The notes beneath the pieces were generated by a model, which was not told the origin of the DNA, did not search any database, and worked only from the letters and a program-made list of their open reading frames with translations. Below are positions 5,882 through 30,064 of a stretch of 39,330 bases of DNA, in pieces (position 1 is the stretch's first letter; the number at the start of each line of letters is the position of its first letter). Origin of the DNA: Prevotella sp. (GTDB taxonomy: Bacteria; Bacteroidota; Bacteroidia; Bacteroidales; Bacteroidaceae); contig JALERP010000139.1 in NCBI GenBank assembly GCA_022764085.1, positions 1 to 39,330 on the forward strand. Reading direction: 5' to 3'. The translations under genes and the position numbers were made by a program.

Positions 5882-8800
5882 TTACAAATTGATTTTCACA
5901 CCTGCCGAGAAGCTGCGGCTCTGTGGCAGACTACCAAGGTCAACTCCCTGTCCGATTACTGATGTGGTGGAAGACAACTCGGGGTCGGAGCCTAAGTACT
6001 TGCTGATGGTGAAGAGGTTGTTTGCCTGTACCCAGAACTCCAATCCCTGGATGAATGTGGAATTCATCGGCAGGTTGTAGCTCAGTGTCACGGTCTTCAG
6101 GCGCAGATAAGAACCATCCTCTATCCAGCGGTCGCTGAAACGTGAGTTGCCCATAGGGTCCTGGAACGTGAGCTTCGGAACTGATGTCACCTGTCCCTCT
6201 GCCTGCCAGCGGCTGAGCATGTTGGTAGTCTGGTTCATGAAGCGACTGCCGCCTTCGAGCTGTGAGCGCATGTAGTTATACACGTCGTTGCCGAGGCTAT
6301 AGTTGAAGTTCACGTCAAGCTTAAGGTTCTTGTATGACAATGACGTACTGATATTTCCGTAGATATCGGGATTCGGGTCACCGATTATCATACGGTCCTT
6401 CTCGTTGATTTCGTGATTGCCATCCATATCCTCAAATATCATGTCACCTGCACCGAAGTAGTGCTTTGTCACGCCATTGTCATCGAGTATGTAGAGTCCT
6501 GACTGTTCAGCCTCCTCGGTAGTGGCGAACACACCCTTGGTCTTGTAGCCATAGAAGAGGTTGGCAGCCTGCCCGATCTCTGAGCGGATAGTGGCACCAT
6601 AGTACTCGTTATCGAAGTGTGTGCGGTTGTCGGGCAATTCGGTAATCTTGTTCTTGTAGTGACCTACACTTGCGCCCAACTGCCAGTTCCAGTTCCTGGT
6701 AGAGACGAGCTTCACACTTGCAGCCACGTCGAAACCGGTGTTCTCGAGCTTACCGCCGTTTGACCAGTTTGTGTCAAGTCCTGAGATGAAGTTGAGGCTC
6801 TGCAGTGTGAGCAGGTCGCTTGTCCAGCTCTTGTATGCGTTTACCGAGAGGTTCACGCGGTTGTTGAAGAGGTTGGCGTCGATACCGATGTTGGCGCGGC
6901 GTGTTGTCTCCCACTTAATCTCGGTGTTGCCGATACCGTCGAGTGTAAGGGCTGAGAGTGCGTGGAGGAAGAGCTTCGAGCGCATGTAACTGCGTGCTGC
7001 ATAGTAGTCGATGTCGTCATTACCGCTCACGTCATATCCGGCAGTGAGACGCAGATAGTTGACGATGTTCGACTTTGCGAGCCAAGGCTCGTTGGTCAGC
7101 ACCCATGATGCCTGCACTGCGGGGAACAGACCCCAAGATGCACCGAACACCTTAAGCCCGTCGGCGTCCTCACCGAAGCGTGAAGAGCCCTCGGCCGTGA
7201 GGTTTGCCTGCAGGAAGTATTTGCCCATATAGTCATAGTTTGCCTGGGCATACCATGCTATTGAGTTCCAGTTGTCACTTGTTCCGAACGAGTTGGCATT
7301 CATAAGGCTTGAGCTCATGAACGGGGTCTTGTCGCTACCGGTGTTGTAACCCAGCTGGCTGTTGAGCGTATATGTCTCCCACATCACCCTTGCACCGCCG
7401 AACACGCTGATATTGTGTGCGTCATAGCGGTTGTGCCAGTCGATGCGAGTATCGCTCATCACAGAGTTCTGCTTTGAGAAGAGCGAGCGCACCTCGTTGG
7501 TACGGTATCCGTTGACGGCTGTCACATAGTACTCGGGCACACCGTTGATTGGTATGTAATACTTCTCGTTGGTGTTCACCAAGCTGTAGCTGAAGTGCTC
7601 GCTGATGGTGAGGTTGTCGTTCACCTTGAACTTTGGGGTAACGGCAAGGTTAAGCAGTGAGTTCTCAAAGCGGTTCTTGTTCTCTGCCTCTCCATACTCG
7701 TTGAGGGCTACAGGGTTGGCAAGACGCCAGTTGTAGTTGGCGTAGTTTGCCATAGCCTCGTTGAGGTAGCTCTCTGGCTCGATGTCGAAGTGTGAGTCAG
7801 AGATTACACCATAACCATAGGCATAAGGACTGAGGAACGGGGCCTTCACATATCCGAGGAATGCCGGCGATGTAGGAGTTCCCTCGTCATAACCCGAAGG
7901 AGCGGCGTCATCACGGATATTACGTGTGAGGTTGGAGAACGAAGCATCGAAGCGTACCGACAGGTTTTTGAGCAAATTGATGTCGGTGTTGAATCGGATA
8001 TTCAGTCGTCCCATGTTGTTGTACTCAAGCGTGCTCTGTGCATTGGTGTAACCTACGGAGAGATCGTAGGTAGCCACGTTGTCACCTCCCTCAACATTGA
8101 TACCATAGCTCTGGGTCAATGCGGTACGATACAGCATATCCTTCCAGTCGGTATTGTTGTGGTACTGCTTGTAATAGTAGTAGTTGGGGTCGGCATTGAG
8201 GAACTTGAACTCACGTATCTTGGTGTCGGTGGTCTTGAGCATCTCGGATGCGTAGCCACGATACTGCTCGGCATCCATCATGTCGATGAACTTGGGCAGC
8301 TGGGTGACACCGGCGGAAACTGTCGCAGATATACGTGTTGCCATACTCTTGCAACGGCGTGTCTCGATGACGATAACGCCATTGGCACCCTTGGCGCCGT
8401 AGAGGGCTGTACCGTTGCGCAGCACTGTCACTTTCTCAATGTCAGCAGGGCTGATGTTGGAAAGAATATCATTCACGAAACCATCGTGAATCATCGTTCT
8501 GCCATATTGCTGGTCAACGATTACACCATCAACGACAATCAGCGGCTGGGCGTTCACGTTCAGGGAGTTGAGACCCTGTATAAAGATATTTGAACCAATT
8601 CCCGGCATACCGTTGCGCTGCTGAGTATATGCGAACGCACCGAGCTGCTTCTGTATATCTTCCTTCACATTCACCGAGGGAGAGTAGTTGAAGTCTGTGG
8701 CAATCTTGGCGTTGCCTGTCTCCAGTTCCTTGGTGTATTCCGGTGTGAAGACAGTTGGATAGAGAGTGATTTCTCCCTGCTCCTCTCCATCAACCAAACC

Positions 8801-9166
8801 CTTAACCACACGGTTGTGCTTAGGTTCGGTGACAGTGATAGAGCTGGCGAACACAGGCACATCGAGTTTGAACGAACCGTCCTCTTCGGTCAATGCACTG
8901 TAACCATCCACACCCGAAGCTGCAACGATGGCACCAAAGACGGGTTTGTTGGCAGCGTCGGTGACACGACCATTGATGCTACGGACAGCATATCTCTTCT
9001 TCTTGGCAACAGGCTTTTTCTTTGCCGTCACAGTCACATCATCAGTTTCGTCTTCCTGGGCGAAACCGCTTGCAGGATAGGCAAGCATACCAATGCCGAT
9101 GGCACAGAAAAGGGTGCCTGCCTGTATGCGGATATGATTATATGATGTTATATTCTTGAATTTCAT
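5882..9166 (-). CDS. susC-like: SusC/RagA-family TonB-dependent transporter (pair 1, unusual N-terminus)
   Basis: 1094 aa. A signal peptide ends near SGFAQ (residue 37). A TonB-box-like acidic/Val-rich stretch and basic linker, DDVTVTAKKKPVAKKK (42-57), precede the CarboxypepD_reg-like domain (about 62-137, 'VRSINGRVTDAANKPVFGA'). The plug follows (about 165-272, with 'IFIQGLNSLNVNAQPLIVVDG' and 'VTVLRNGTALYGAKGANGVI'), then the beta-barrel ending ...SRSFSAGVKINL with a terminal hydrophobic residue. In most SusC proteins the TonB box sits between the CarboxypepD domain and the plug; here that interval has no such motif. The protein should import oligosaccharides with the 588-aa SusD encoded next to it. 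Confidence 0.93.
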   Translation of the reverse strand: MKFKNITSYNHIRIQAGTLFCAIGIGMLAYPASGFAQEDETDDVTVTAKKKPVAKKKRYAVRSINGRVTDAANKPVFGAIVAASGVDGYSALTEEDGSFKLDVPVFASSITVTEPKHNRVVKGLVDGEEQGEITLYPTVFTPEYTKELETGNAKIATDFNYSPSVNVKEDIQKQLGAFAYTQQRNGMPGIGSNIFIQGLNSLNVNAQPLIVVDGVIVDQQYGRTMIHDGFVNDILSNISPADIEKVTVLRNGTALYGAKGANGVIVIETRRCKSMATRISATVSAGVTQLPKFIDMMDAEQYRGYASEMLKTTDTKIREFKFLNADPNYYYYKQYHNNTDWKDMLYRTALTQSYGINVEGGDNVATYDLSVGYTNAQSTLEYNNMGRLNIRFNTDINLLKNLSVRFDASFSNLTRNIRDDAAPSGYDEGTPTSPAFLGYVKAPFLSPYAYGYGVISDSHFDIEPESYLNEAMANYANYNWRLANPVALNEYGEAENKNRFENSLLNLAVTPKFKVNDNLTISEHFSYSLVNTNEKYYIPINGVPEYYVTAVNGYRTNEVRSLFSKQNSVMSDTRIDWHNRYDAHNISVFGGARVMWETYTLNSQLGYNTGSDKTPFMSSSLMNANSFGTSDNWNSIAWYAQANYDYMGKYFLQANLTAEGSSRFGEDADGLKVFGASWGLFPAVQASWVLTNEPWLAKSNIVNYLRLTAGYDVSGNDDIDYYAARSYMRSKLFLHALSALTLDGIGNTEIKWETTRRANIGIDANLFNNRVNLSVNAYKSWTSDLLTLQSLNFISGLDTNWSNGGKLENTGFDVAASVKLVSTRNWNWQLGASVGHYKNKITELPDNRTHFDNEYYGATIRSEIGQAANLFYGYKTKGVFATTEEAEQSGLYILDDNGVTKHYFGAGDMIFEDMDGNHEINEKDRMIIGDPNPDIYGNISTSLSYKNLKLDVNFNYSLGNDVYNYMRSQLEGGSRFMNQTTNMLSRWQAEGQVTSVPKLTFQDPMGNSRFSDRWIEDGSYLRLKTVTLSYNLPMNSTFIQGLEFWVQANNLFTISKYLGSDPELSSTTSVIGQGVDLGSLPQSRSFSAGVKINL

Positions 9167-9198: not shown

Positions 9199-10893
9199 TT
9201 ATTCCTCTTCATGCGGTTTGAAGACGATACTGTCGATGCGGAGTATTCGGTTGAACTTACCGTTCTTCACATCATTGTTACTTACACGTGTGTCGAGAAT
9301 GAGCTTCACCTGCGGAGCGATGTTGCCACCTACTGAACAATAAGGTATCTGGACATTCTCTGCCACCTTGAAGCAATCCACCTCGTCGGCGGTGGTGATC
9401 AGTTCCTTCTGAAGCAGTGTCCACTGACTCTCCTTCGACGGTTGTTTGCCGTTAACGTCGTTGTATGCCATTCTCACGCGGAACTTGGTGGGCAGACGCG
9501 AGGCGTCTGTTGCCAAGGTGTCGCCGGCAAGTGCCGGGGCTGTGGTTATATAAATGTCATAACCGATATTTGAGAGCACTGATGGAACGTTGAACACTGC
9601 CTTGATGTTACTTGCGGCACCACGAGCAGGGGTAATCTCCGCATAGCTGTTGCTCGACAACTTGCCATAATAGGGATTGTTCTGAGCCACCCTGACTATG
9701 GTGAGAGGAGTGTTGGTGGTCAACTGGTCAACGGAGTCGAGACGCTCGTTGTCCTCACCTTCACAGATGATTGACTGCAGGAAGGTCTGCTTCTTGTCAA
9801 TCTTCCATTTGTTGGTCTTCATCACCTTACCGTTGCTGCACTGGTAGTCCTGGGTCTCGGTGAACACGCCACCTGCATCGTACGGTCTGTCATACTGATA
9901 GTACTTGGCATCAGCAGTACCATATATATACTTACGCCATTCGTATATAACAGAACTTGTTGACATGGCAGAGTCCCTAACTGTTCTGTCGGGGTTCTGC
10001 GTGCGGCTGAAAATCGTTCCACGAAGCAAGGCAAGACGTGCGTTCACATACTGCATGGAGTCGCGCTTGGGCACCGAGTTGTCATACTGATAGTACTTCT
10101 CGTATTCGGGCACGAGCCTGTTCCATTCGTCGTTGGTGGGAACAAGCATCCAATATGTACTGTCCTCTGAAGCCAACTTGGCGTCGAGATGAGCGAACAT
10201 CTCATTCTCAAGCACCGACACTGAGTCAAGATAATGGGTCTGTCCGTCCTTGATTTCACCCGGCACACTGAGTGCAGGGTCAAAGACGTACTGGTTGAAT
10301 TCGTACAGGAAGTTGGCGACAGAGTCAAGCTCTGCATCCTTCTTTAGATACTCGAAGACGTTAGGAGAGTAATCCACCTTCTTGTCGAGAGTATAGAGCA
10401 CACCGTTGCCTACGTTGCAGGCGAGGGTCATCGACTGACCGCCGAGGGAGTTGGAGGTCAGGTGCAGATACTTGCCGTTCATCATCACGATAGAGTCGTT
10501 GCTGTTGCCCGATACAGAATAATTGTAAAGGGCGATGTGGTTCTGCACGAACTCCTTGATGGCAGTGTTGTCATTGTTCTTGACACTCTGGCTCTTCTCC
10601 TGACCATACACATTGATTAGCTCCTGAGCCTGTGCTTCTGAGAAGTTGGCATTGGTGGGAGCAAACACGGTGAACATCTGCGAACTTGCCAACGAAGCGT
10701 CATATCCGCACGCCTTGACAACACTGGCGAAATTGGAAAGTTCCGAGTTTGTCGAGATTGACTCCCACAGATTGCCTTTGTATGTGCTGCCTATGTTATA
10801 GTGGTCATCCCATGTGTCAGTGCAGGAGGTGATGCTGAGAGCAATTGCCATTGCTCCCAACACCTTACTATATATATTACAATATTTTGTCAT
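9199..10893 (-). CDS. FAS1 (fasciclin)-domain lipoprotein, two FAS1 modules plus C-terminal beta domain
   Basis: 564 aa with a lipoprotein signal (LSITSC, Cys24). The first FAS1 module covers roughly 40-200 and carries the typical 'FTVFAPTNANF' strand (74-84) and 'GNGVLYTLDKKV' end. The second (about 205-390) has 'WMLVPTNDEWNRL' near residue 248. The remaining ~170 residues ('FNVPSVLSNIGYDIYITTAPALAG' region) look like a jelly-roll binding domain. It lies between the preceding FAS1 gene and SusC pair 1. FAS1 folds mediate adhesion and protein or glycan contact; a surface glycan-binding role, replacing SusE/F by position, is inference. Confidence 0.85.
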   Translation of the reverse strand: MTKYCNIYSKVLGAMAIALSITSCTDTWDDHYNIGSTYKGNLWESISTNSELSNFASVVKACGYDASLASSQMFTVFAPTNANFSEAQAQELINVYGQEKSQSVKNNDNTAIKEFVQNHIALYNYSVSGNSNDSIVMMNGKYLHLTSNSLGGQSMTLACNVGNGVLYTLDKKVDYSPNVFEYLKKDAELDSVANFLYEFNQYVFDPALSVPGEIKDGQTHYLDSVSVLENEMFAHLDAKLASEDSTYWMLVPTNDEWNRLVPEYEKYYQYDNSVPKRDSMQYVNARLALLRGTIFSRTQNPDRTVRDSAMSTSSVIYEWRKYIYGTADAKYYQYDRPYDAGGVFTETQDYQCSNGKVMKTNKWKIDKKQTFLQSIICEGEDNERLDSVDQLTTNTPLTIVRVAQNNPYYGKLSSNSYAEITPARGAASNIKAVFNVPSVLSNIGYDIYITTAPALAGDTLATDASRLPTKFRVRMAYNDVNGKQPSKESQWTLLQKELITTADEVDCFKVAENVQIPYCSVGGNIAPQVKLILDTRVSNNDVKNGKFNRILRIDSIVFKPHEEE

Positions 10894-10920
10894 AACACTT
10901 TTTCTTTATTGTCATTGTTT

Positions 10921-12993
10921 TTACAGGTCTGACTCCATTGAGCCTGCGGTGTTAACACCATAAATGCTCTTTGGCACAATCTCAAGATAGTCCATCATGA
11001 ACTCGTTGTTGTTACCCAACTTGCTGGTAGAGGTACAACGGATGCGGATGAAGTGGTCGGTCTTGGGATTGATGTGTACGGTACACAACACCAGTCGGTA
11101 GGTACGCTCATTATCCACAAACTCGTTGATTACAGAGCCGTTGGAGTGATAGCCACCGTATGCACCACGATAGTAACCGAGGTTCTTCAGCATCTTCTGG
11201 TCCTCTGCTTTTTCCTCGTCGGTCATATCAGCCCATTTTTTCGAACCGAACTGGTCACCCATCACCGACTCATGGTTCAGACGCTTACGCATATCCACTG
11301 GAATACCCTGTGGCTTGCCGTCGAAATATACCTGAGCCACACCACGGGTGTCAAGGGCACAGAAACCGAGACGTATCTGATAGTCACCCTCGTAAGGCAC
11401 CGGCGGAAGACGGAACGTGAAGTCATAGTCGCCGAAGAGGTTGAACTCGTCACCTTCGTATGACCAGAAGTTCCAGTGGGGACGGCGATATACGAGTGTA
11501 CCGTTGCCACGCATGGTAACATTGTCGAGATAGCCCTTGGGGAACCAGTAGTTCTTACCGTTCTTGAAGGTCTGGTCTGCCTTTGAGCTTTCGTCGTCCT
11601 TCTTCGGGTCACCGTTCAGGCGTATGTTCATTGTCATCAACTCGGGGAAGATTGTTGCAAAGTCCATACGTATCCTGTCGTTCATTACCTTGTTCTGTGT
11701 GTCAGAGCTGAAAGCCACAATGTCATCCACATAGAAGTATCGGCCGTTAGGAGCATCCTGTATGTACTTGTCCTCTACGGTAGGCAGGATCTTTGCACCG
11801 TCAATCTGGTATTTATCATCCACACGGCGGTTAACATAACGCTGACCTATTTCGGCATTGCCGAGGAATGAGCGTACTGTAGCCTGCTCAATCTTCATCA
11901 TTGTGCGCGGCATAAGTGTCTCATACCAGTCGTTGGGGTTCATCTTGTCGGTCTTGATACCGATGGCGCCATCCACAATACCTGAGTGGATCTCGATAGG
12001 CGTCAACTTGTTCCATCCAATCACGTCGCGGGTAAGGATATGATAAGCCACGAACATGTTGAGGGGATTGTTGCGGTCGGTAATCTTGTCGAAGTCATGA
12101 GCTGCCTGATAGTCGGCGTCATTACCGAATACAGGGTCATAAATCTTGCAAGCAAGGTCATAGATGGCCCTCACTTTGTCGGTTCCTATGCTCACGCCAT
12201 AGTCGCTGAGCTTTGCCTTCATCACGTCGTCTGGCTCAACAAAGACTGTAAATCCGTATTTCTTCTCGTCCGGGGCGACGGCTATTTCGTGCCAGAAGTC
12301 AGAGGTATAAGAATATGTGCCATACTGCGAGGCGTCATAATTCTCGTCCTTCACCTTGATAAGGGTATCACGCAGACCTGTAGCCACGAGACAGTCGTAG
12401 AATATGCTGATGCGGTCGTTGTCCTTGATGACGTCGGCAATGGAGCTGTTGGAATTTTCAAGCACCATGTCGATAGGATGAACAATACCATTCTCTACGG
12501 AGTCGTCCTTGAGTTCGAAGATAATCTTCGACATACGGTTAAGCTCCACCACGGCATTGAGGTTCTCGTCGATGGTGTGCGTAATCTGTATGTAACGCTT
12601 GTTGAGGTTGGCGGTGTTGAGAGTACCGTCGTTCATGTCGAGCGTTGCATACATGTTGTTCACGAGGTGTGTCCTGGCGATAGTGTCGCACTGCTCCTTG
12701 GTCAGGTCTTCCACACTGTTGAGTCCCTTCTTCTGGAGGAATTTTGCCATCACGTCGTTTGAAGGCAGGAAGCAGGTGTAGTGTCCGTATGCAGAGAGTA
12801 GGTCGGTCAGATCCGCCTGGTCCACGATATATGCGAAATCACTGTATTCCGGTCGGTTGTTGAGATAGTCGCTCATCATCTCACCCGTGAACGTATAGAA
12901 GTTCTCGGCACTTGGGTCGTCAGAGCATCCCGTCAACAGCAGACCATTCATTGCGCAAATTGCGCTCAGAAGGATATACTTTATTCTTTTCAT
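10921..12993 (-). CDS. FAS1 (fasciclin)-domain lipoprotein with C-terminal jelly-roll-like domain
   Basis: The track starts this ORF at 13044, but I take ATG at 12993 (MKRIKYILLSAICAMNG): it gives a proper lipoprotein signal with LLTGC (Cys23), whereas the longer version adds 17 residues and overlaps the end of SusD. The 690-aa product has one FAS1 module around residues 20-190 ('CFLPSNDVMAKFL' near 78) and a more diverged one around 200-410 ('FTVFVEPDDVMKAKL' near 252). The C-terminal ~230 residues ('DFTFRLPPVPYEGDYQIRLG', 'VAQVYFDGKPQGI') look like a galactose-binding/jelly-roll fold. It is 19 bp downstream of SusD and 27 bp upstream of the next FAS1 gene. Surface exposure and ligand binding are inferred. 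Confidence 0.83.
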   Translation of the reverse strand: MKRIKYILLSAICAMNGLLLTGCSDDPSAENFYTFTGEMMSDYLNNRPEYSDFAYIVDQADLTDLLSAYGHYTCFLPSNDVMAKFLQKKGLNSVEDLTKEQCDTIARTHLVNNMYATLDMNDGTLNTANLNKRYIQITHTIDENLNAVVELNRMSKIIFELKDDSVENGIVHPIDMVLENSNSSIADVIKDNDRISIFYDCLVATGLRDTLIKVKDENYDASQYGTYSYTSDFWHEIAVAPDEKKYGFTVFVEPDDVMKAKLSDYGVSIGTDKVRAIYDLACKIYDPVFGNDADYQAAHDFDKITDRNNPLNMFVAYHILTRDVIGWNKLTPIEIHSGIVDGAIGIKTDKMNPNDWYETLMPRTMMKIEQATVRSFLGNAEIGQRYVNRRVDDKYQIDGAKILPTVEDKYIQDAPNGRYFYVDDIVAFSSDTQNKVMNDRIRMDFATIFPELMTMNIRLNGDPKKDDESSKADQTFKNGKNYWFPKGYLDNVTMRGNGTLVYRRPHWNFWSYEGDEFNLFGDYDFTFRLPPVPYEGDYQIRLGFCALDTRGVAQVYFDGKPQGIPVDMRKRLNHESVMGDQFGSKKWADMTDEEKAEDQKMLKNLGYYRGAYGGYHSNGSVINEFVDNERTYRLVLCTVHINPKTDHFIRIRCTSTSKLGNNNEFMMDYLEIVPKSIYGVNTAGSMESDL

Positions 12994-13012
12994 ATTATTA
13001 TACTCTATTACG

Positions 13013-14734
13013 TTAGTTCTTCTCATAATTTCCGGATTCACCACTGCCGAATGCAGGGTTCTGCTTCAGGTTCTTGTTAACCTTCAGCTCATCCACATTG
13101 TATGGCCAGAAGATAGCGTCCAACTTCCTGAACTTGTCCTGAATGGCAGATGTGTTGTTAGAATACTTCTGCAGCACCTGGCGGCTGAGGAAGGATGTCT
13201 CGCCGTCTCTCATCGAGCGGCGCACGAGGTCATACCATCTCTTGCCCTCGAACATCAGTTCGCGCTGACGCTCAAGCATCACCAGCGACTCTATCTGCTC
13301 CTTGCTCCTAAACTTGGATGCGTCGAGGGTGTCCTTCATGCTTGTTGTAGGCTGGCAAAGCGAACGCTTGTTCACTGCGTTAACGAGTGAGAAAGCCTGC
13401 TGATAGTACTTTTCGTCCTGCTCGGTGAAGTTTGTCCCGTTGCTCATAAGCTGTGTCAGAGCCTCGGCCTTCATCAGCATGATGTCGCTAAGACGATAGA
13501 TTATCCAGTTGGATTTCACCTTGCCCTCATAATACCATCCGGAGGTGAAGATGGTTGGAGTTGATGACGAGAACGAAATCTGAGTCATGCTATGGGTATA
13601 TTTCGCGATAACGCTACCCATAATGTTCTCGTATGCACGGGCGTCATAGTCATTGGCAAAAATCGAGTAAGCTTTTGTCTCAACGTCATCACCGATAAAT
13701 GACGACACTGAGGCATAACCCATGAGACCTGCGTTCTTGCTGTTACCGTAGCAGAGACTCACGGCACCGTTACTCGGCATATTATCGTCGGGCATGAATG
13801 TCAGCTCGAAGATACTCTCTGTACTGTTGCCCTCACCGAAAACCCGATTGTAGGCATAACCATACATAGAGGATGAGTTGGCATAAGCTGAAGAGATAAG
13901 AGGATAACCGTTGGTGCGTGTAAGGTCACTTGCAGAAGAGTTGCCGTATTCCTCCTCATACTGCTTCTTCTTTGCCTCGATAATCAGGTCGGCATAGCGG
14001 ATGCAGTTGTTGTAGTCCTGCTTCCACAGATACATCTCGCAGAGCATGGCATAGATGGCCTGCTGGGTGATGCGTGCGGTCTGATAGAGTTTCTTCGTGG
14101 CTGAAGAGGCGGGGTACTTTGTCACGGCGTCGCCCTTCACTCTCTCCAGGTCGTTGATAAGACTGTCGAGCACATTGTTGAAGTTAGTGGCCGGCAAGTC
14201 CATCTTCTGGTCGTCGTCGGTGAAAGCCTCTGTAGAATAAGGTACGTCACGGAACGTGCGGATAAGATAGAAATAGCACAGCGAGCGCAGGGCAGTAACC
14301 TCGGCGATGTCAGCCTTCAGTTCACTCTCGCTGAAGTTCGGGTCCTTGGCAGCCACTGAGGGTGCATACTTGATGACGGTGTTGCATCTGTTGATGATAT
14401 TGTAGAACTGGTCCCATGTGGTGTACCAGTTGGAGGCGGTGAGGTTCTCCTTGAGGATATTCTCGAGGTTAACGTCCTTGTCGAGGTTCTGTCCGCGTGA
14501 GATGTTCTCGCTTCTGAACTCGCCCCATATCATCATTCTCATAAGGATATTGTCCGACTGCATACCAGAGTAGCATCCGGCAATAATACCATCCACGTCG
14601 GCCTTCTCATTCCAGAATTTCTCGAGGATGATTTCATTCTGCGGTTCTACCACGAGGAAGTCGCTGCACGATGACATGCCTGTGATGGCAGCCAGACCGC
14701 CGGCGATAGAATATAATATGTTTCTGAATTTCAT
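13013..14734 (-). CDS. susD-like: SusD/RagB-family outer-membrane nutrient-binding lipoprotein
   Basis: 573 aa with a lipoprotein signal ending GMSSC (Cys23) followed by SDFL, the classical SusD start. 'WNEKADVDGIIAGCYSGMQ' and 'WDQFYNIINRCNTVIKYAP' are standard N-terminal SusD helices, 'AEVTALRSLCYFYLIRTFRDVPY' is the conserved TPR segment, and 'RELMFEGKRWYDLVRR' (about 498-513) is the C-terminal RagB/SusD signature. It follows its SusC partner by 12 bp. This is a more typical SusD than the 588-aa one and should bind the imported oligosaccharide over the SusC pore. Confidence 0.95.
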   Translation of the reverse strand: MKFRNILYSIAGGLAAITGMSSCSDFLVVEPQNEIILEKFWNEKADVDGIIAGCYSGMQSDNILMRMMIWGEFRSENISRGQNLDKDVNLENILKENLTASNWYTTWDQFYNIINRCNTVIKYAPSVAAKDPNFSESELKADIAEVTALRSLCYFYLIRTFRDVPYSTEAFTDDDQKMDLPATNFNNVLDSLINDLERVKGDAVTKYPASSATKKLYQTARITQQAIYAMLCEMYLWKQDYNNCIRYADLIIEAKKKQYEEEYGNSSASDLTRTNGYPLISSAYANSSSMYGYAYNRVFGEGNSTESIFELTFMPDDNMPSNGAVSLCYGNSKNAGLMGYASVSSFIGDDVETKAYSIFANDYDARAYENIMGSVIAKYTHSMTQISFSSSTPTIFTSGWYYEGKVKSNWIIYRLSDIMLMKAEALTQLMSNGTNFTEQDEKYYQQAFSLVNAVNKRSLCQPTTSMKDTLDASKFRSKEQIESLVMLERQRELMFEGKRWYDLVRRSMRDGETSFLSRQVLQKYSNNTSAIQDKFRKLDAIFWPYNVDELKVNKNLKQNPAFGSGESGNYEKN

Positions 14735-14746
14735 AAACGTCGTTAC

Positions 14747-17700
14747 TTAAAAATCTACTGTGATACCTAATGTATATGAACGCGAGCGAGGTGTCTGTGC
14801 CCAGTCGATTGCCGGGTCATAGCCACTGGCTGTGATGTCGGGGTCAACACCCGAGTACTTCGTGATGATGAACGGGTTGTTGGCACTTGCATATATGGCG
14901 ATGCGGTTAAGGCCTATTGGCTTCAGCATCTTCTTGCCCAACGTATATGAGAGCTGGATATAGCTCATACGCAGATATGAACCTGTCTCCACGAAGCGGT
15001 CGCTGACGAGGGTGTTGTAATTCGATGTGTTTCCGAACATTGCACGCGGGATTGTTGTCACGTCGCCTTCCTTGCGCCAGCGGTAGTTTACGGCCTGGCT
15101 CTGGTTGTCGTTGCCTCTCATTGACTCGGCGTTCAGGCGGGCCATGTTAAGAATCTTGTTACCCACACGGTAGGTGAACTGTGTGGAGAGTCGCCAGTCC
15201 TTGTAGATGAAGTTGAATCCGAAACCACCGGTGAGCTTAGGCAGTGAACTTCCGAGATATACGATATCGAGTGCGTCGATGTTACCGTCGTGGTTTACAT
15301 CCTCATAGATGGCGTCGCCACCGGTGAAAGGATAGTTCTTGCCTGTACCCTCGTTGTTGTAGTTGTAGCGCATTCTCAGTGGATTGCCCTCGGCATCGAG
15401 AATCAGCTTGCCCTCGGCATTGAATGCCACAGGGGCAGTCTTGCCGGCTGCTATGAATGCTGCGCGCTCCTCGTCGCTGAGGTCCTTGAAGGTCTCATAG
15501 TTATACTGATATACGCCCTTGCTGCGGAATCCGTAGATAGCTCCGAGCGGGTTGTTCAACTGCACGCGGCGTAACCACTCTCCATTGCCGTAGGCGTAGG
15601 TTGAGTTGAGAGAGTTGATGACATACTCGTCCATTTCAAGTATCTCGTTGCGGTTGTTACCGAAGTTGGCGTTCACGTCAATGGTCACCTTGCCCACCTT
15701 GATGAGGTTGCGGGTGTTGAGGTGGAACTCCCATCCGATGTTTCTCATCTTACCGTTGTTGTGGTAAGGTACGGTCATATAACCTGAGTTGCTCGGTATG
15801 CGGTAGTTGCTGAGCAACATGTCTGATGTCGTAGAATGATAACCCTCCAAGGTAAATGTCAGTTTGTCGTCCCACAGACCGATGTCGATACCGAGGTTAT
15901 AGCTTGAGTTAATCTGCCAGCGCAGGTCGGTCAGACGGATATTCACAGGATACATGGTTGCCATGTCGAGGTATCTGCTGCCCGAGGCATACTTACTGGT
16001 GTAGAGGTAGTCCTGGTTGGGCTGGTTACCCACGCGTCCCCAGCTTGGACGGATGGAGAGCATTGAGAGCCACTTCTCACGGAGCGGTGTCATAAACGGC
16101 TCGTCGATGATGTTCCAACGCAGTGAGACTGCGGGGAAGTAACCCCAGCGGTTGCCAGGTCCGAACTTTGTGGTACCGTCGGCACGCATTGAGAAGTCGA
16201 ACATATACTTACCCTTGTAAGCGTAGTGCATAGAATAGGTGAAGTACATCGAACGCCACTGTGAGTACCACGAGGCGAGACCGGTGTTCACACCGCCTGC
16301 GTCAGGACTCTCGATACCGCCGGAAGGCAGCAGTTTGGCACCGTTTGACTGTCCGCTTGAAGTACCTGAGTTCAACTCGAAACGACCCATCATCGACAGT
16401 GAGTGGTCTTCGCTGTTGAAGTGAGGTATGAAGGTAAGGGTCTGCTTGGTGTTGAAAGACACGCTCTTGGAACTGCCCGAAGATGCGGTATTAACACCGT
16501 CATGCCAATCAACAGTGCGCAGCTCTGATGGATAGAATGCGTCGTCATACTGGTTGAACACGCTCATATACACACTTCCGCGCCAGTCGAGGCGTGTGTG
16601 TGAATCATCGACACCAAGAAGACGGTAGTTGATGATAAGCTCCGGAGAGAGGTCGTATGTGCGGCGCTCCTTCTTTGCGAGATATGCACTTGCCACGGGG
16701 TTGACGTATGTCTTCTGGTTCTTGTCGAACACGTCCGAGGCTGTCTGCAGCATCTGATAGAAACGGTCAGTGTCCTGTCCAGTAACAGGGTCTTGCTCAT
16801 AGATGCTCATATTAGGCATCTTCTTCATTGCTATGGCAAGGAGGTCGTCACTGTTGAGCTTGTTCTTGGTATATGTCAGGGCGAAGTTGGTTGACACCTT
16901 GATACGCTCGCTGACATAGTAGTCGAGGGCAACACGTGTGGAGAAACGGCTCAGCTTCTGTTGGATTATCGAACCAGTCTCGTTGTCGAAACCACCACCG
17001 ATACGGAAGGAAGCCTTCTCGCCACCACCGGTGATTGACAGGTAGTGATTCTGTCGAAGACCTGTCTGTGTCACTGCACTGCGCCAGTCGGTGTTGTTGT
17101 TATACTGCTCGTATTCCGAGAAGTTGGGGTCGTAGTTTATTTCCTTGATGCTCTGGCTGCGGCTGTCATCCTGTGTAGGATTGAAATAGCTCTCCTTCAA
17201 CATCATGGTATAGTCATCACCACTAAGAAGGTCGTATCCCTTTGGCTGGTGGGTTGCTGTCATCTTCAGAGAGTAAGACACCTTGGGAGCACCCATGGCA
17301 CCACGCTTTGTAGTAAGCTCAATGACACCGTTACCACCCTGGCTACCATATACTGCAGTTGCGGCGGCATCCTTCAGCACGCGGATGTCGGCGATGTCCT
17401 CAGGGTTGATGTTGAGCAGTTCGGCAAACTTCTCGTCGTTGGCGCCGCCAAGGTCGAAGTTTGACATATCAACACTGCGGATGTTACCATCGACAACAAT
17501 GAGCGGGTCGGCATTTGTCAGTGAAGACAAGGCAGAGGTACCGCGCAGACGGATGGTGGAACCCGAACCGAGGTCACCCGAGTTACCAATAATGTCAAGA
17601 CCGGCGATACGTCCCTGTAGTGCCTCATCCACTGAGGTGATGGGCAGACCGGCAAACTCCTTCATAGAGATCGACTGGGCTGCGTAAGACACCTCACGCT

Positions 17701-18121
17701 CAGGAATACCGAGGTTGTTACCGCCAGTACGCTTCTTGGCCACGACGGTCACTTCCTTGATTTGCGTTGCTGACAACATCTTAATGTTGAACACGGCTTT
17801 GTTGATGGCCAGTATCTGGGTCTTCATACCTACATAACTGAACCTGATCTTGTTCTTGGCATTCTTCACGTTCATGGTGAAGTTACCGTTCAAGTCGGTA
17901 ATAGTAGAGTTTATGATACGTCCGTTGGCATCAATCTCACAGACGGTAGCGCCCATCAATCCTCCCATATCGTCAGAGACATTACCGTGTACTGACGTAA
18001 TCTGGGCATATATTGACGAGCATACCAGCAAGGCAAGCACCGTCAGAATAGTGCGGCACTGTCCCATAGACTTTTGCAATATAGCCTTCATCTGTTGTTT
18101 TGTTTTAATGTAATACTCCAT
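14747..18121 (-). CDS. susC-like: SusC/RagA-family TonB-dependent transporter (pair 2)
   Basis: 1124 aa. The signal peptide ends at SSIYAQ (residue 40). A CarboxypepD_reg-like domain (about 41-118) is followed by the canonical TonB box KEVTVVAKK (122-130), the plug (about 145-275, 'DEALQGRIAGLDIIG', 'IRLRGTSAL', 'NADPLIVVDG', 'VLKDAAATAVYGSQGGNGVI') and a barrel ending SRSYTLGITVDF. The ATG at 18121 is supported by AAGGAGG six bases upstream, unusual for Bacteroidetes; ATG at 18091 (MKAILQ) is an alternative start. It begins 3 bp after the stop of the 903-aa FAS1 gene, so translational coupling is likely. Paired with the SusD at 13013-14734. Confidence 0.95.
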   Translation of the reverse strand: MEYYIKTKQQMKAILQKSMGQCRTILTVLALLVCSSIYAQITSVHGNVSDDMGGLMGATVCEIDANGRIINSTITDLNGNFTMNVKNAKNKIRFSYVGMKTQILAINKAVFNIKMLSATQIKEVTVVAKKRTGGNNLGIPEREVSYAAQSISMKEFAGLPITSVDEALQGRIAGLDIIGNSGDLGSGSTIRLRGTSALSSLTNADPLIVVDGNIRSVDMSNFDLGGANDEKFAELLNINPEDIADIRVLKDAAATAVYGSQGGNGVIELTTKRGAMGAPKVSYSLKMTATHQPKGYDLLSGDDYTMMLKESYFNPTQDDSRSQSIKEINYDPNFSEYEQYNNNTDWRSAVTQTGLRQNHYLSITGGGEKASFRIGGGFDNETGSIIQQKLSRFSTRVALDYYVSERIKVSTNFALTYTKNKLNSDDLLAIAMKKMPNMSIYEQDPVTGQDTDRFYQMLQTASDVFDKNQKTYVNPVASAYLAKKERRTYDLSPELIINYRLLGVDDSHTRLDWRGSVYMSVFNQYDDAFYPSELRTVDWHDGVNTASSGSSKSVSFNTKQTLTFIPHFNSEDHSLSMMGRFELNSGTSSGQSNGAKLLPSGGIESPDAGGVNTGLASWYSQWRSMYFTYSMHYAYKGKYMFDFSMRADGTTKFGPGNRWGYFPAVSLRWNIIDEPFMTPLREKWLSMLSIRPSWGRVGNQPNQDYLYTSKYASGSRYLDMATMYPVNIRLTDLRWQINSSYNLGIDIGLWDDKLTFTLEGYHSTTSDMLLSNYRIPSNSGYMTVPYHNNGKMRNIGWEFHLNTRNLIKVGKVTIDVNANFGNNRNEILEMDEYVINSLNSTYAYGNGEWLRRVQLNNPLGAIYGFRSKGVYQYNYETFKDLSDEERAAFIAAGKTAPVAFNAEGKLILDAEGNPLRMRYNYNNEGTGKNYPFTGGDAIYEDVNHDGNIDALDIVYLGSSLPKLTGGFGFNFIYKDWRLSTQFTYRVGNKILNMARLNAESMRGNDNQSQAVNYRWRKEGDVTTIPRAMFGNTSNYNTLVSDRFVETGSYLRMSYIQLSYTLGKKMLKPIGLNRIAIYASANNPFIITKYSGVDPDITASGYDPAIDWAQTPRSRSYTLGITVDF

Positions 18122-18124
18122 AAC

Positions 18125-20836
18125 TTACCTCCTTCTCGCTTTAGATTTAGCCATTTCTTGTCTCCACGGAGTCTTCTGGCTTGACGTATAGAACAACGGG
18201 CCGTCTATCTGATGTACCAGCACATCGGCAGTGGTATAGATGGACTTGTTGAAGAGTGAACCTGAAATCCAGTATTCACGGCAGATATTGTTATACAATC
18301 CGTCCTTCTTCACTACGCTGCGCGTGTCGCCTAAAAGGTCCTTCACTGTAAGGCTCTTGTTTGCCATATCTACCTCAAGACTGTAGAATCGGTTGGTCTC
18401 GGTATTGAGCATCATCGACTCATAGTTGTTCTTTGTGATGGCAATTCCTTCCGAGTCGGTATCGGGAGCACCATTTACTGCCACCGAGTTGTCCTGGATA
18501 TGATACTTCACGAAGTCAAGGATGCGATTTGATATCATGGTGCATGCTGCCTTGGCTGCGGCCCTTTCTTCTTCTGTAGAACCGTGCTCTGAAATCTCAT
18601 ACTGTGCGTCGTAGTCTTCCCAAGTGGGCAGCACGCCGTCGTTGATGAGCTTCCGTATCGACTCGTTGGTTGGGACATAAACAGTATAGTTATATGCACC
18701 GAAGAGGCGGATATTACTGTTGGTAGCTGAGTTGACACAGTTATACTTCACATTGTTGAGCGTGATTGTGCTCAACAACAGATGGTCGTCGGCTGGAAGG
18801 TTCTCCGAACCGCTCAGCAACTTGAGGAACTCGGAATATTCTTCCTTCTCGTTAAGAATCTGATATACAGACCTGGTGGCGGCCATCGGGAACTGCTCGT
18901 TGAATCGGTATGACTTACCGTTACCAGTGGTTGACATGTCGTAAATGGAGTCAACCTTTGCAATGGCGTTGTTCTCCAACTGCCATCCACCCTTTACAAT
19001 CATCTGGTTGCTCTTTCCGGCATTCTCAATCTTCACAGTAGTACCGTTTTTCGACTTGAAGTAGCTATAGTCGTTCTCTACGCTACCCACAATAATCATT
19101 TGGTTGACTATGTCTCTCAGACGGTTTTTCACGATTGCGTCAGCCACGTTTTCCTGTGCCCTGTTGCCCATTACTATCTCTCCGTTCTCACCGAGTGTAT
19201 AGTAATATCGTGAAGCCTTAACCTTTCTTTCGAGATTATCATAGTAGAACATCAGGAGCGACATCTGTGCATCGCCCACAGAACAGGGGTCGAGATAGCA
19301 CAACATGGCATTGTTGGTTGGCAACATAAGACTGTAGTATGAGTCCATTGAATTAAGATATGGCGTGAACTCCAACTCGTCGATTGCCCAATATATGACA
19401 CTCATTACGTCCTGATGGATAAGTGCGGGGAACGAAACGCTCGAATACTCCATTGGGGCGAACACGCGGTTGGTTAGATAAACCACACCGTTACAACCCA
19501 TGAAGCAACTATCTACATCGGCGGTAGTAACACCCATCGACACCTTTGCGTCGTTAACGATAGACGAGAACTTCGATGGCAATGCCTCGGTGAACGTACC
19601 GAGCATGTTTACACGCAAGAGTTTTGAAAGCACGAGGTCGGGCACATTGTCCCATGTACCGTACTTGTCCTTGAGCACCTTACCGTCGGCGTTCCACCAC
19701 TTGTCGAGAGCCTCGTTGCTCGGAACAAGCATGACACCGGCATCATAGTGAAGGTCGTAACCACTGGTGTTCTCATACATGTACTGATTCCATCCCGGGT
19801 CAAAGGTGAGCTTTGCAGGCACCTTTACCGGCACTGGGTTGCCGCTTGTCACGGGATAATATTCCGCATTCATACCGTCCTTACGGGTATCGGCGAAGTA
19901 GCGCAGTGTAAACACTGAATCGACACTCTGATTGTAGAGACGGTTGTACTCCTGTGTCTTGTAGTAGTCATAGTAAGGCGCACTGAAACGGTCAACCAGA
20001 TGCGACCACATTGACGTATTGGAATGCTGACGAAGGATTTCAGCCATATTGGGGAATCCCTCAACCACTCCATCCATCTTCTGAATATAACCGTTCTTAC
20101 AGGTAAGGTCTCTCTCAACCACCTTTCTTCCTGCCACGTAAGCGTCGTTGACAGAGGTGGCCACACCATTGGTGAGGATAGTGATGTCCTCGTCGGTGAA
20201 CGCCTGCTTGCGCATGAAGGCGGGAAGGAAATGAATCATCGGGGCCGACAGTCCGGCTGTCGAACCGTTGCTCATCATTCTACCGTCCTTGAAGAGGATG
20301 ATGTCCTTCTTGTTTTCCTTGTACCATGCCCATGCCGGAAGAGTGCCGTTCATGTCCTCGTGCTTCATCACATATACTGAGTCGAAGACACTCGTTGAGT
20401 TGGGACGTCTCATGGCGAGACCCGTCTCTGGTGGGTCGGCACTAACGTTAGACATCAGCTCTATCAGATAGGCATTGTTAATCATGGAGTTGTTCAACAG
20501 GTCTTTTTTCTGAGCTAAGGTGAGCTTGTCATACGACCTTACTCCCCACTTGTTTGTCTTGAACCACTCATCGAATGCAGCGTCGGTGGCTGCAAATAAT
20601 GTAACTGAACCGGTTCGGCTCATCTGATCATGCAGTCCCAGGTCGTCAATAAGCCTGGTTGTCACCGTATAGTTGCCGTCTTTCTGCAACTCCTCATAAA
20701 TGGAGTTACCCAACCATGAAGGCTGTCCCGTTAGGGTGTCATCCTGACATGACTGGAAGGCAACTGACGTGGCCAACATCAGACCGATTGCAAGTGTGGG
20801 CCTATACGATCCCTTTTGGATAAGTTTGCAATTCAT
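18125..20836 (-). CDS. Large FAS1 (fasciclin) lipoprotein with four FAS1-like modules
   Basis: 903 aa with a lipoprotein signal ending VAFQSC (Cys30). Four successive FAS1-like modules can be picked out by their conserved strand: 'TLFAATDAAFDEWF' (79-92), 'GVMLVPSNEALDKWW' (near 365), 'SLMLPTNNAMLCYL' (near 502) and 'TVYVPTNESIRKLI' (near 720). The first ends with 'NGYIQKMDGVV' and the last with 'YTTADVLVHQIDGPL', the usual FAS1 terminal strand. It lies 20 bp after the GH51/GH43 gene and 3 bp before SusC pair 2, the place where a transporter accessory protein would be expected. The Arg-rich C-terminus supplies the ribosome-binding site of the SusC gene. A surface scaffold or glycan-binding role is inferred; no catalytic motif is visible. 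Confidence 0.85.
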   Translation of the reverse strand: MNCKLIQKGSYRPTLAIGLMLATSVAFQSCQDDTLTGQPSWLGNSIYEELQKDGNYTVTTRLIDDLGLHDQMSRTGSVTLFAATDAAFDEWFKTNKWGVRSYDKLTLAQKKDLLNNSMINNAYLIELMSNVSADPPETGLAMRRPNSTSVFDSVYVMKHEDMNGTLPAWAWYKENKKDIILFKDGRMMSNGSTAGLSAPMIHFLPAFMRKQAFTDEDITILTNGVATSVNDAYVAGRKVVERDLTCKNGYIQKMDGVVEGFPNMAEILRQHSNTSMWSHLVDRFSAPYYDYYKTQEYNRLYNQSVDSVFTLRYFADTRKDGMNAEYYPVTSGNPVPVKVPAKLTFDPGWNQYMYENTSGYDLHYDAGVMLVPSNEALDKWWNADGKVLKDKYGTWDNVPDLVLSKLLRVNMLGTFTEALPSKFSSIVNDAKVSMGVTTADVDSCFMGCNGVVYLTNRVFAPMEYSSVSFPALIHQDVMSVIYWAIDELEFTPYLNSMDSYYSLMLPTNNAMLCYLDPCSVGDAQMSLLMFYYDNLERKVKASRYYYTLGENGEIVMGNRAQENVADAIVKNRLRDIVNQMIIVGSVENDYSYFKSKNGTTVKIENAGKSNQMIVKGGWQLENNAIAKVDSIYDMSTTGNGKSYRFNEQFPMAATRSVYQILNEKEEYSEFLKLLSGSENLPADDHLLLSTITLNNVKYNCVNSATNSNIRLFGAYNYTVYVPTNESIRKLINDGVLPTWEDYDAQYEISEHGSTEEERAAAKAACTMISNRILDFVKYHIQDNSVAVNGAPDTDSEGIAITKNNYESMMLNTETNRFYSLEVDMANKSLTVKDLLGDTRSVVKKDGLYNNICREYWISGSLFNKSIYTTADVLVHQIDGPLFYTSSQKTPWRQEMAKSKARRR
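18128..18134 (-). promoter_or_regulatory. Shine-Dalgarno site made from the last codons of the upstream FAS1 gene
   Basis: The minus strand reads AAGGAGG six bases before the SusC ATG at 18121. The same bases are the final Arg codons (AGA AGG AGG) of the FAS1 protein ending SKARRR. It supports the 18121 start and coupling of the two genes. Confidence 0.6.
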
Positions 20837-20856: not shown

Positions 20857-23800
20857 TTATTTTAATTCTTTCTTTCCATTTCTTATTCTTATTCCCTTTG
20901 TCTGGGCATTGTCTTTAATTTCCATACCACCAAGGGTGTATGTTTTTCCACTGCCCTTCATTTCCTCTTTCACACCATCAATACCTGTGGCATTACCAAG
21001 GTATTTCAGGGTGAAATTGTCGAAGCAGCACCAGTCGGAATATACGGAATTGTTATTCTCTATACCTATTTTTATATTGCCCGGCTCAGCAAGTTTCACC
21101 TTTAGGGTCAGTTTGTAATAGCCGTAGGTATTGAATGCCTCGTTGGCTGCCTGCACATTATCGGGATAGGTATAAGGACTCACACCGTATCTGTCGGCAC
21201 TCTCGTCGTAGAGACTCATCACGGACACCGACTCGCCGTTGGCGAAGAACACTGCGTTAAGCTGCTCTGTTCCGTCGGCCACCGCGTTGAGGGCATTGTC
21301 TATCGCACCGTATCTGTAGAAGCTCTGTACTCCCACTTCATACTCACCCTCAGGCAGGTTTTCCACTGTCTGGTAGAACGAGAACCAAGTGTTCCAGTAT
21401 TCTGCCACATAACCGTTTGCCTGGGTGAAGTTGCCGGATGTTGTCCATCCCTCACTTCCCTTGCTGAAGTCGGGATTGACCATCAAGGCGGTCATATCCA
21501 CTGACTTACCAGCCTCTGCCATTTCAGTGATAAAGTCCTTATAGATTGACTCACAACCTGAGAGTGCCACGAGGGCATCGTTCATGGCCTTGGCGTTCTC
21601 TGCAAATGTCGTGCTGTTGTTAAGGGCATTGTAGGCAGTTTCAAGTGCCTTGCCTATTGTTTCCGACTTGCAGGCCTTATAGTAACTTTCCACTGTGGGC
21701 AGCAAGGTCTTCACCTGTTCCCATGTTCTCAGATAATCATATTCGGCGGATGTTATCTTGAGTATGCAACCGTGTTGGGCGGCAACGGAACCGCTGATAA
21801 GTGCGGGTGCACTCACGTTGAGTCCCTGCTCGTCCATGTCGCGCATCTTATAGCCATAACCTGCACCGGAGTAATTGATATATGCGAGCTTCCACTTGTC
21901 GCTGCCTATGAGTCGCCACTGGGTGGGAGCCTCGACTGCCTGGTTGTTGTCGCCCACATGGAAGTCGGGAGTTATAGTCCACTGGCATGTTCCTGTTGTC
22001 TCGCCTGCCCTCGGGATGAGGTGTGTGGCTGTGGCACGGTCGAAGCCCGAAGTCTTCTCGCATTTGTAAATCATTACATACTGCTTGTCAACCGCATTCC
22101 AGACTATGTCGGCATCTATGATGTCATAACCGGGGTCGAAGTAAAGCTGCGGACGGGTGAGTATGTTCAGATCCTTATCTACCACGGAATAGTAGATGCG
22201 GTGACGGTCGGGGAAGCCAACACTATAATATACCACGAAGTTTCCGCTCTCGTTGTCATATATAATCTGAGGTGCCCATGCGGCAGTCATCTGCTCGGCA
22301 GTGATACCTCCGAGAGCCTCAAGGTTCTCAGGTGTCTCAAGGTCAATCTTCACGTTCTTTGTCCAGTGGACAAGGTCGGGCGAGAGCATCAGAACCATAA
22401 CATGGTTGCTTGTCCATCCCAACCTTGATGTCATGTCAGTACCGGCGAACATGAAGTTGCCGTCGGGCATTCTTGTGATGAAGGCATCACGCATACCGCC
22501 GGTGACGGTATTCGCCTTTGTGTCAAATACCTCCGCACCGTTGAACATGTCGTTCCAGCTCTGTCCATGCTGGCTAAGGGCATAGTTGGTATATTCACCA
22601 TTGCGGTTCATGTGGGCATAGAGATAGCCTGACATTCCTGCGTCTTCCTTCTCGTATTCTTCGTATGTTGTCTTTACTTCCTTGCCAATCTCCTTTGCTC
22701 CAAGACGGAAGATATTCAATGAATATGCGGGTATGTCCAATGTGACGTGTGTTTCATCCGTAACATTTACAATCTCACCCTCTGACGGCTTGACGTTGAA
22801 CGGATGTTCCATAGTGTTCTCGTCAGTACCGTTGGCTGACGCAAGTCTTACTACCGTTCCGTTGCCTATCTTCATGTTAAGCGTGTTCAGGTCGATAGTC
22901 TGGGCAGTTGCATGGGGATTGACCACCTTGACAATCAGTTCACCGTTGGTCTCGTCAATCTGCACACTCTGATAAACACCGCGGGCACCGGAAGCTTCGG
23001 GCAGGTTGAACTCATGACATACGTTGTTGTCGAGCAGACAAGTGACCTTGCCATTCTCCACCCTAATCTCCACGTCATACCAGCGGTTGCTTGCCACACT
23101 GCCACCGACTGAGGCATAAGTGGCCTTCTGTCCGTTAGTACATATCTCCACTGCATGCTGGGTATTACCCCATCCGCCTATGTTCCACCATGCGTAGTTG
23201 TTCGTATCCTGATAGTTGAACATTATGAGGAATCCCTCGTCGCCAGAGATTTTCTTTGCGCGCACCTTATATATATAATTACCTGTGGCTGCCACGTTCA
23301 GCACAGCAGTGCAGTTGGTGCCGGTAGATGTCTGCTTGAGGAAACCGTTCGTCACGCTCCAGTTTCCTTCTCCCTTTGTCCATTGCGAGATGTCGCCACT
23401 GAAATCGTCGGAGGCAATGGTATTACCTTTTATATCGGTCAATGAGGCGTTGTCAAACTGTGCCACCGTACCCCATGTGCCTACTCCTACCTTTTCCTCG
23501 CCATTGCCTTTAATCATGTTTCCGCTCTCAGTCCACAGGAGGTTCTGTTCACCGAGATGCACATTCATAAGTTTCTGCACATAATATGAAGGGGTAACGA
23601 AGTTGTCTGCGGCGTTGAAGTGAATCATGTCATACGCCCAGCAGGGGTCTTGCTCGTGCATGAAGATGGGTGCGAAGGATGCCAACTGGCACACGTCGCT
23701 ATTGCGCTCCATACCAAGCATATACACAGCCTCGCCAAGAGCACTGTTCATATTGCCGTATCTGCCGTAGTTGCCTCCGTTGGCGGCATATTCTCCGTTA

Positions 23801-28927: not shown

Positions 28928-30064
28928 TCACCATTCATCGCGCCAATTTATCACCGGTACACCATCCTTGTCGAAGTCGATAGGCAGCCATATATACCGC
29001 GCATCTATGGGATGCTCGGGACGCCAGATGTCAGCCATGAAGATATACTTGCCGTCATCCGTAGGAAGGACAAATGTTGACTGACCGCCAAAGGTTATCT
29101 CTTCCTTCGGTCCACGACAAGGATTGGGATGCTGTTTCCACGGTCCCCATATACTCGGGGCAGAGAACATCCTCGCCTTGTTGGGAGCCCAACCTGTGCA
29201 TCCGCTGGCAATCATCCAGTAGGTGTTGCCATGACGGAAAACTGCGGGTGCCTCGTTCTGTCCTCCGGGAGCCACACGTACATAACGCCCCGTATGCGAG
29301 AGATAGTCATCACTGAGTTCAGCTATATGCAAGGTGAGGTTGTCCTCAGAGGAAAAGATATGATATGCCCTACCGTCGGTATCGACAAAAAGGGTCATGT
29401 CTCTCGACATCTGTCCTGCTGGAAGGTTGTGTCCTTCTTGCGTGCGCGCCTTCATATCGCGCTTCAGGAAAAGGCCCTTCTTTATGGCATCCCGCCAAGT
29501 GGGTGTCCACCATTCCTTATAGTTGTCGGCATTGAGAGTGTCAAGCACCGCTTTGTCCGCATCGTCAAAGTCCAATGGATAATGTCCGGCATTCGCCCTG
29601 TCAGAACGTATGAACTTAAACGGGCCTTTCGGCGAGTCACTCACCGCCACGCCGTAGCGAGCTTGCCAATAGCCCTCGCCCTTGAGCTCGAGGTGAAACC
29701 ACATCACGAATTTCTTCGTAACCTTATTATATATAACCTTAGGGCGCTCAAGAGTACAGCCAGTCTCAAGGTCGTGACCTTTCTCATCCACAACACTCAA
29801 AGCCACACCTTCGTAACGCCAGTCGCGCAAGTTCTTTGATGAATAGCAGGTGACACCAACAAAGGCGGCACTCGATTTCTCGCCCTTGTGTTCGCCATAC
29901 CAATAGTAGGTATTACCATGTTTGAGCACACCACCGCCGTGGGCATTGATATGCTCACCACGGTTGTCTTTCCAAATCTCACCGGACTTGATGGTGGTCT
30001 TGCCTGACGAGAGAACAGGCAAGACCACGAGTAATGATATTATGATAACAGTTATGAGACGCAT
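28928..30064 (-). CDS. Secreted GH43 enzyme, exo-beta-1,3-galactanase-like (subfamily 24/34 type)
   Basis: 378 aa with an N-terminal signal or anchor (MRLITVIIISLLVVLPVLSS). The five-blade GH43 fold is indicated by 'INAHGGGVL' (39-47), 'YYWYGEHKG', 'ERPKVIYN' (Glu106), 'SRDMTLFVDTDG' (220-231), 'NEAPAVF' (Glu271), 'SGCTGWAPN' and 'GGQSTFVLP' (Gln328). At the place where most GH43 enzymes carry the base Asp (RDP) this one has NAHGGG, as in subfamily-24 galactanases, where a Glu and a Gln are reported to do the chemistry; which residues do so here needs an alignment. The start is the first Met, with a TAATTTTG promoter 38 bp upstream, divergent from the HTCS gene. It may trim beta-1,3-galactan, which would point to arabinogalactan as the substrate. 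Subfamily and substrate are uncertain. Confidence 0.8.
   Translation of the reverse strand: MRLITVIIISLLVVLPVLSSGKTTIKSGEIWKDNRGEHINAHGGGVLKHGNTYYWYGEHKGEKSSAAFVGVTCYSSKNLRDWRYEGVALSVVDEKGHDLETGCTLERPKVIYNKVTKKFVMWFHLELKGEGYWQARYGVAVSDSPKGPFKFIRSDRANAGHYPLDFDDADKAVLDTLNADNYKEWWTPTWRDAIKKGLFLKRDMKARTQEGHNLPAGQMSRDMTLFVDTDGRAYHIFSSEDNLTLHIAELSDDYLSHTGRYVRVAPGGQNEAPAVFRHGNTYWMIASGCTGWAPNKARMFSAPSIWGPWKQHPNPCRGPKEEITFGGQSTFVLPTDDGKYIFMADIWRPEHPIDARYIWLPIDFDKDGVPVINWRDEW

Follow-up and report, generated by a model that had tools for sequence, protein, structure and literature searches.

An operon with two SusCD pairs and three FAS1 lipoproteins

Sus-like systems are the chief route of fiber use in gut and rumen Bacteroidota, and little is known about those of their surface components that are not enzymes. 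The 39,330-nucleotide stretch of DNA analyzed here (the window) comes from a 3.0-Mb Prevotella-like metagenome-assembled genome (MAG) and carries an operon in which three lipoproteins built from FAS1 modules accompany two SusCD transporter pairs. What do FAS1 proteins, placed in this way, contribute to glycan import? The genes are listed below in their minus-strand order, from GH43 to Glyco_hydro_cc, and are followed by the regulator on the opposite strand. From GH51 through Glyco_hydro_cc, the intergenic gaps are no longer than about 35 bp.

28928..30064, minus strand: GH43
25238..28792, minus strand: 1184-aa secreted protein with no Pfam family, kept upstream in window-type loci
20857..25119, minus strand: GH51 alpha-L-arabinofuranosidase with a long C-terminal part and CBM_4_9, immediately 5' of F4
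18125..20836, minus strand: F4, 903-aa lipoprotein with four FAS1 modules (lipobox Cys30)
14747..18121, minus strand: SusC1 (C1), TonB-dependent transporter with the canonical TonB box EVTVVAKKR
13013..14734, minus strand: SusD1 (D1)
10921..12993, minus strand: F2a, lipoprotein of two FAS1 modules and a CBM-like C-terminal jelly roll (690 aa)
9199..10893, minus strand: F2b, lipoprotein of two FAS1 modules and a distinct C-terminal domain (564 aa, lipobox Cys24)
5882..9166, minus strand: SusC2 (C2), with no canonical TonB box in the segment that joins the carboxypeptidase-like domain to the plug
4091..5857, minus strand: SusD2 (D2)
405..4070, minus strand: protein with Glyco_hydro_cc and CBM_4_9, likely the final operon gene
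30244..34287, plus strand: hybrid two-component system regulator (HTCS), divergent

The open reading frames of F2b, F2a and F4 are all intact. That of F2a reaches back to a GTG at 13044 (10921-13044), and its true start is probably the ATG at 12993, which gives a protein of 690 aa. Both SusCs match TIGR04056 over their full length (697.6 and 568.1 bits; cut-off, 368). The operon had been described initially as having no SusE/SusF-like gene and, in agreement with this, none of the operon proteins matched the SusE/SusF Pfam domains.

Among the neighboring proteins, the GH51 enzyme (20857-25119) has a C-terminal domain that a 3-keto-disaccharide-hydrolase/laminin-G-like insertion interrupts and that is followed by a long extra region. 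The 1184-aa protein (25238-28792) carries repeated CBM-like stretches and, in window-type Prevotella loci, is conserved just 5' of the cassette. Beside the regulator, positions 34385-35983 encode a 532-aa protein with a weak ricin-B-lectin-like match.

Fold and predicted location of the FAS1 proteins

The initial annotation counted about eight FAS1 modules in the three lipoproteins, two in F2b, two in F2a and four in F4. The Pfam Fasciclin family (PF02469) matched each protein once above the 22-bit cut-off, with E-values of 9e-10 (F2b), 2.5e-14 (F2a) and 6e-11 (F4). The remaining modules fall below Pfam detection and were recovered by profile-profile comparison, in which homologue alignments were sliced into segments and the segment profiles compared with each other. 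This approach linked the two modules of F2a (residues ~36-180 and 182-425; probability, 98.5), the two modules of F2b (probability, 91.8) and each of the four modules of F4 (~44-258, 262-460, 464-652 and 655-880) to other FAS1 modules. The C-terminal region of either two-module protein had no profile match to FAS1 or to that of the other.

Confident AlphaFold2 models were obtained for F4 (pLDDT 85.7, pTM 0.81) and F2a (pLDDT 86.6, pTM 0.82). In Foldseek, the F4 model aligned across about 875 columns with TGFBIp and periostin, each of which has four FAS1 modules (E-value of 5e-20). The F2a model aligned with the FAS1 pairs of fasciclin I and TGFBIp, and its C-terminal part with jelly rolls, among them those of Xyn30D, a modular xylanase (4qaw), and MiXBM (7ehg). 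Because the profile links, the models and the Foldseek matches agree with it, the count of eight is correct. All eight modules have the FAS1 fold, as assigned by model and Foldseek for F4 and F2a and by profile comparison alone for F2b. A search of the PDB returned no FAS1 structure from Bacteroides.

Each of the proteins also has a lipobox, VAFQSC(30)QDD in F4, LLTGC(23)SDD in F2a and SITSC(24)TD in F2b. The acidic residues that follow the lipobox Cys in all three are expected of surface export and predict a surface location. The lipoproteins share their fold and tandem modules with periostin, TGFBIp and fasciclin I, yet these are animal extracellular matrix or cell-adhesion proteins with ~12-16% identity and no transporter. 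FAS1 is classically an adhesion fold, which would suit a role of the bacterial proteins as adhesins.

A fixed and widespread seven-gene cassette

The FAS1 genes and the transporters form a cassette in the order F4-SusC1-SusD1-F2a-F2b-SusC2-SusD2. When homologues of F4, SusD1, F2a, F2b and SusD2 were each searched separately in 119 related genomes, all five occurred together at 64 places and, at every one of these, in the order F4-D1-F2a-F2b-D2, and one genome could carry as many as 5 copies. Close SusD1 homologues adjoined F2a in 69 of 70 cases, the sole exception lying near a contig end. Thus, the survey found no conserved version of the PUL from which the FAS1 genes had been lost. Pairs 1 and 2 were rarely separate in the sample, and the exceptions were contig ends or a distant partner below the search threshold. 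Reading the DNA of 30-odd loci showed all seven genes in this order and on the same strand at nearly every locus, with median intergenic gaps of 13-28 bp; one F4 gene, overlapped by a longer opposite-strand frame in ORF calling, was recovered by protein search. In the copies read, F2b directly precedes SusC2 and F4 directly precedes SusC1. The order persists at 20-36% identity in Bacteroides, in a second copy in the window's own genome (contig C119) and in other families.

The locus had been treated as a local oddity, but the cassette proved to be widespread. Of 80 loci found by scanning named genomes, 73 carry F4, which is followed by the other cassette genes until the sequence ends (three of these loci have one gene under the labelling threshold), and the remaining 7 consist of isolated FAS1 proteins from flavobacteria. 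The F4 profile had matches in 213 of the family's 301 genomes and in 18 of its 30 genera, although in the genus Bacteroides it was found in just 18 of 121 genomes. With G532, G536 and G539 left out, almost all Bacteroides SusC1-like proteins (at least 38% identity) were in genomes bearing F4 or F2b. Most of the genomes sampled from the family contain the cassette, some of them in as many as five copies. Window-type loci, which share the GH51-F4 junction, come from Prevotella/Prevotellaceae records that include several rumen MAGs (L266, L273, L291, L293 and L295). Copies in relatives, in genera of the family and in named genomes rule out an oddity of one MAG, and the models, profiles and synteny exclude chance or an annotation artifact as the source of the FAS1 trio.

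The seven genes have also evolved in concert. Their pairwise distance matrices correlate at r=0.93-0.98 (32 loci, paralogous copies included), and those of the FAS1 genes correlate with both SusCs at r=0.94-0.98. These correlations exceed what the species tree alone would give because several of the loci are paralogs that share a genome, the FAS1 genes having been duplicated jointly with the transporters. Tight operon linkage alone could also yield such co-evolution. The initial annotation had proposed the FAS1 proteins as surface receptors of the transporters. Fixed synteny and co-evolution strongly support the first half of this proposal, a predicted surface subunit tied to the transporters; for the second half, the one pointer to glycan binding is the modeled CBM-like C-terminal domain of F2a. 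To our knowledge, FAS1 modules themselves have not been established as bacterial glycan binders.

Enzyme neighborhoods and related systems

PL11 rhamnogalacturonan lyases and related GHs lie beside copies G100, G372, G434a (where PL11 comes after SusD2) and G050, and PL9-type lyases beside G434b, with GH28 as well, and C119. Pectin enzymes (PL11, GH28, GH88/105, GH106 and PL9) are near several copies, and group-2 copies have GH98, GH97 and GH43 in their vicinity. The second cassette of the window's genome (G000:C119, L154-L155) is near a Pel9A-like pectate lyase. The window copy has GH51/GH43 arabinofuranosidases and Glyco_hydro_cc, and no PL11. In sum, the enzymes that accompany the cassette are those of pectin (RG-I/HG) or arabinose-rich hemicellulose, and these neighbors suggest that its substrates are branched glycans of the plant cell wall, frequently RG-I. 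Judged from GH51/GH43 alone, the substrate of the window copy would be an arabinose-rich glycan. An initially suggested link to plant fasciclin-like arabinogalactan-proteins gained no specific support, the FAS1 fold being generic and the cassette keeping company with the enzymes just described.

The FAS1 lipoproteins resemble SusE/SusF and other SGBPs in being SusCD-adjacent, multi-domain lipoproteins with surface-export N-termini, at least one CBM-like domain and no catalytic family. They differ in being built from FAS1 modules and in numbering three per operon, each in a set position, one ahead of the first SusCD pair and two between the pairs. The arrangement had been called poorly described and, consistent with this, our search of papers available without subscription found none on FAS1 proteins with tandem SusCD pairs, so an earlier description is possible. 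It is not wholly unprecedented, however, because the RG-I PUL of Bacteroides thetaiotaomicron (B. theta) also follows the pattern C-D-x-x-C-D, with one SGBP. In that PUL (BT4145-BT4183), the pairs BT4164/4165 and BT4168/4169 flank the SGBP BT4167 and are followed by the lyase BT4170 (PMC8002723). The likeness, which extends to the rhamnogalacturonan lyase placed after the second pair, as in G434a, and to RG-I enzymes, rests on published gene order, and the source names no FAS1 domains (PMC8002723). The window PUL differs in having GH51/GH43 in place of PL11. Homology of the cassette to the B. theta transport genes is thus a lead.

Two further reports touch on parts of the arrangement. A cellulose/hemicellulose PUL of Gramella portivictoriae includes a gene for a FAS1 domain protein and a SusD; a single FAS1 gene is named, in the legend of Fig. 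6, and no seven-gene cassette is described (PMC4891872). DUF1735 proteins are likewise non-catalytic and are proposed to be membrane-bound PUL spacers, although their domain and context differ from those of FAS1 (PMC11216935). With its FAS1 modules replacing SusE/F, the cassette could serve as a marker for a whole importer class, several members of which lie in RG-I/pectin PULs.

Unequal TonB boxes in SusC1 and SusC2

The two transporters differ in the segment that links the carboxypeptidase-like domain to the plug, where we scored the TonB box with a leave-one-out scoring matrix. An EVTVVAKKR-like motif was present in all 91 anchored SusC1 proteins (median score, 21.3; minimum, 7.1), and a further 11 SusCs encoded at these loci scored 11-26. 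By contrast, the corresponding segment of 33 anchored SusC2 proteins had a median score of 1.5 and a maximum of 8.3. Within residues 21-300 of SusC2, the median of the best scores was 7.5 versus 7.1 for shuffled sequences, the window protein excepted. The latter carries a TonB-box-like DVTVTAKKK with a score of 16.5, located N-terminal to the carboxypeptidase-like domain. SusC2 still belongs to the SusC family by its whole-length match, despite missing the canonical box. Scores at the shuffled level thus indicate that the TonB box of SusC2 has probably been lost, changed or relocated. The asymmetry between SusC1 and SusC2 hints at one asymmetric machine.

Proposed role of the FAS1 trio

We favor, at a probability of roughly 0.6, a reading in which the FAS1 proteins are obligate surface subunits of one outer-membrane import complex with two SusCD pairs. 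The reading builds on the gene content, FAS1 folds, lipoboxes, fixed order and co-evolution observed here, and from it we infer functions in glycan capture and in spacing or docking. F4, F2a and F2b would be positioned beside the SusCD pairs at the cell surface, with F2a and F2b working as a pair. The CBM-like C-terminal domain of F2a would capture long branched fragments of the plant cell wall (RG-I and other pectins in many copies, an arabinose-rich glycan in the window), and F2b and SusD may also hold glycan. The four-module rod of F4 and the FAS1 pairs of F2a and F2b could provide stiff spacers or protein-protein docking surfaces that keep SusC1D1 and SusC2D2 together and pass the glycan to both. 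The FAS1 lipoproteins would, in this manner, replace SusE/SusF-type surface glycan-binding proteins. The FAS1 genes and the two SusCD pairs are always inherited together, and repeatedly so in fiber-eating gut bacteria, and they therefore probably make a single machine that captures and imports complex plant sugars.

More tentatively, the complex may be one heteromeric importer used across Bacteroidales for pectin and very branched plant glycans, in which a TonB-energized SusC1D1 is joined to a SusC2D2 whose TonB box was lost or moved, and FAS1 rods bridge the two. If true, this somewhat doubtful extension would describe an asymmetric double-barrel machine, unlike the symmetric SusCD dimers known so far. 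The cassette opens direct tests of whether there is one complex and of the reason for a SusC2 without the usual TonB box.

The FAS1 proteins might instead be pure scaffolds or spacers that join SusC1D1, SusC2D2 and perhaps surface enzymes and bind no glycan. The tandem FAS1 rods of periostin and TGFBIp are protein-interaction modules, F4 consists of FAS1 modules only, and the co-evolution of the FAS1 genes with both SusCs (r=0.94-0.98) would be expected of a scaffold. However, F2a ends in a CBM-like jelly roll and, of the two genes between the pairs of the B. theta RG-I PUL, one reportedly encodes an SGBP (PMC8002723), if it is homologous, which makes a purely structural role unlikely.

The two SusCD pairs could also be independent importers of different fragments, each FAS1 protein acting as an ordinary SGBP and no joint complex being formed. 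Each known SusCD works as a homodimer, in line with such independence. Tandem SusCD pairs are also found elsewhere, as in the arabinan PUL BT0361-0364 (PMC8002723), but the invariant seven-gene order, with pairs 1 and 2 hardly ever apart in the sample, the SusC2 without a canonical TonB box, and the positions of F2b immediately 5' of SusC2 and F4 immediately 5' of SusC1 in the copies read argue for one import complex and leave two separate importers improbable. Adhesion to plant particles or neighbor cells by proteins that merely share PUL regulation, as FAS1 was interpreted in a flavobacterial symbiont (PMC10199937), is highly improbable given the obligate linkage and invariant place of the FAS1 genes inside a transporter operon in many copies and their duplication along with the transporters inside genomes.

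Variant loci

Some loci depart from the usual layout. Two complete cassettes lie back to back in L352/L353 (G415:C38), divergent and with one gene between them. Pairs of F2a'-F2b' genes without SusCD occur in L356 (9578-12876), L357 (7864-11160) and L359 (5740-8492), each beside a gene for a protein of ~165 aa, and their F2a' proteins are without the first FAS1 module and the lipobox. Such pairs, free of SusCD and lipobox, indicate that F2a/F2b-type proteins can work apart from the transporter and suggest that F2a and F2b act as a pair. A rearranged locus, L360 (G054:C67), has F4 and SusC1 on one strand, and its F2a, 766 aa long and extended at the N terminus, is encoded on the other.
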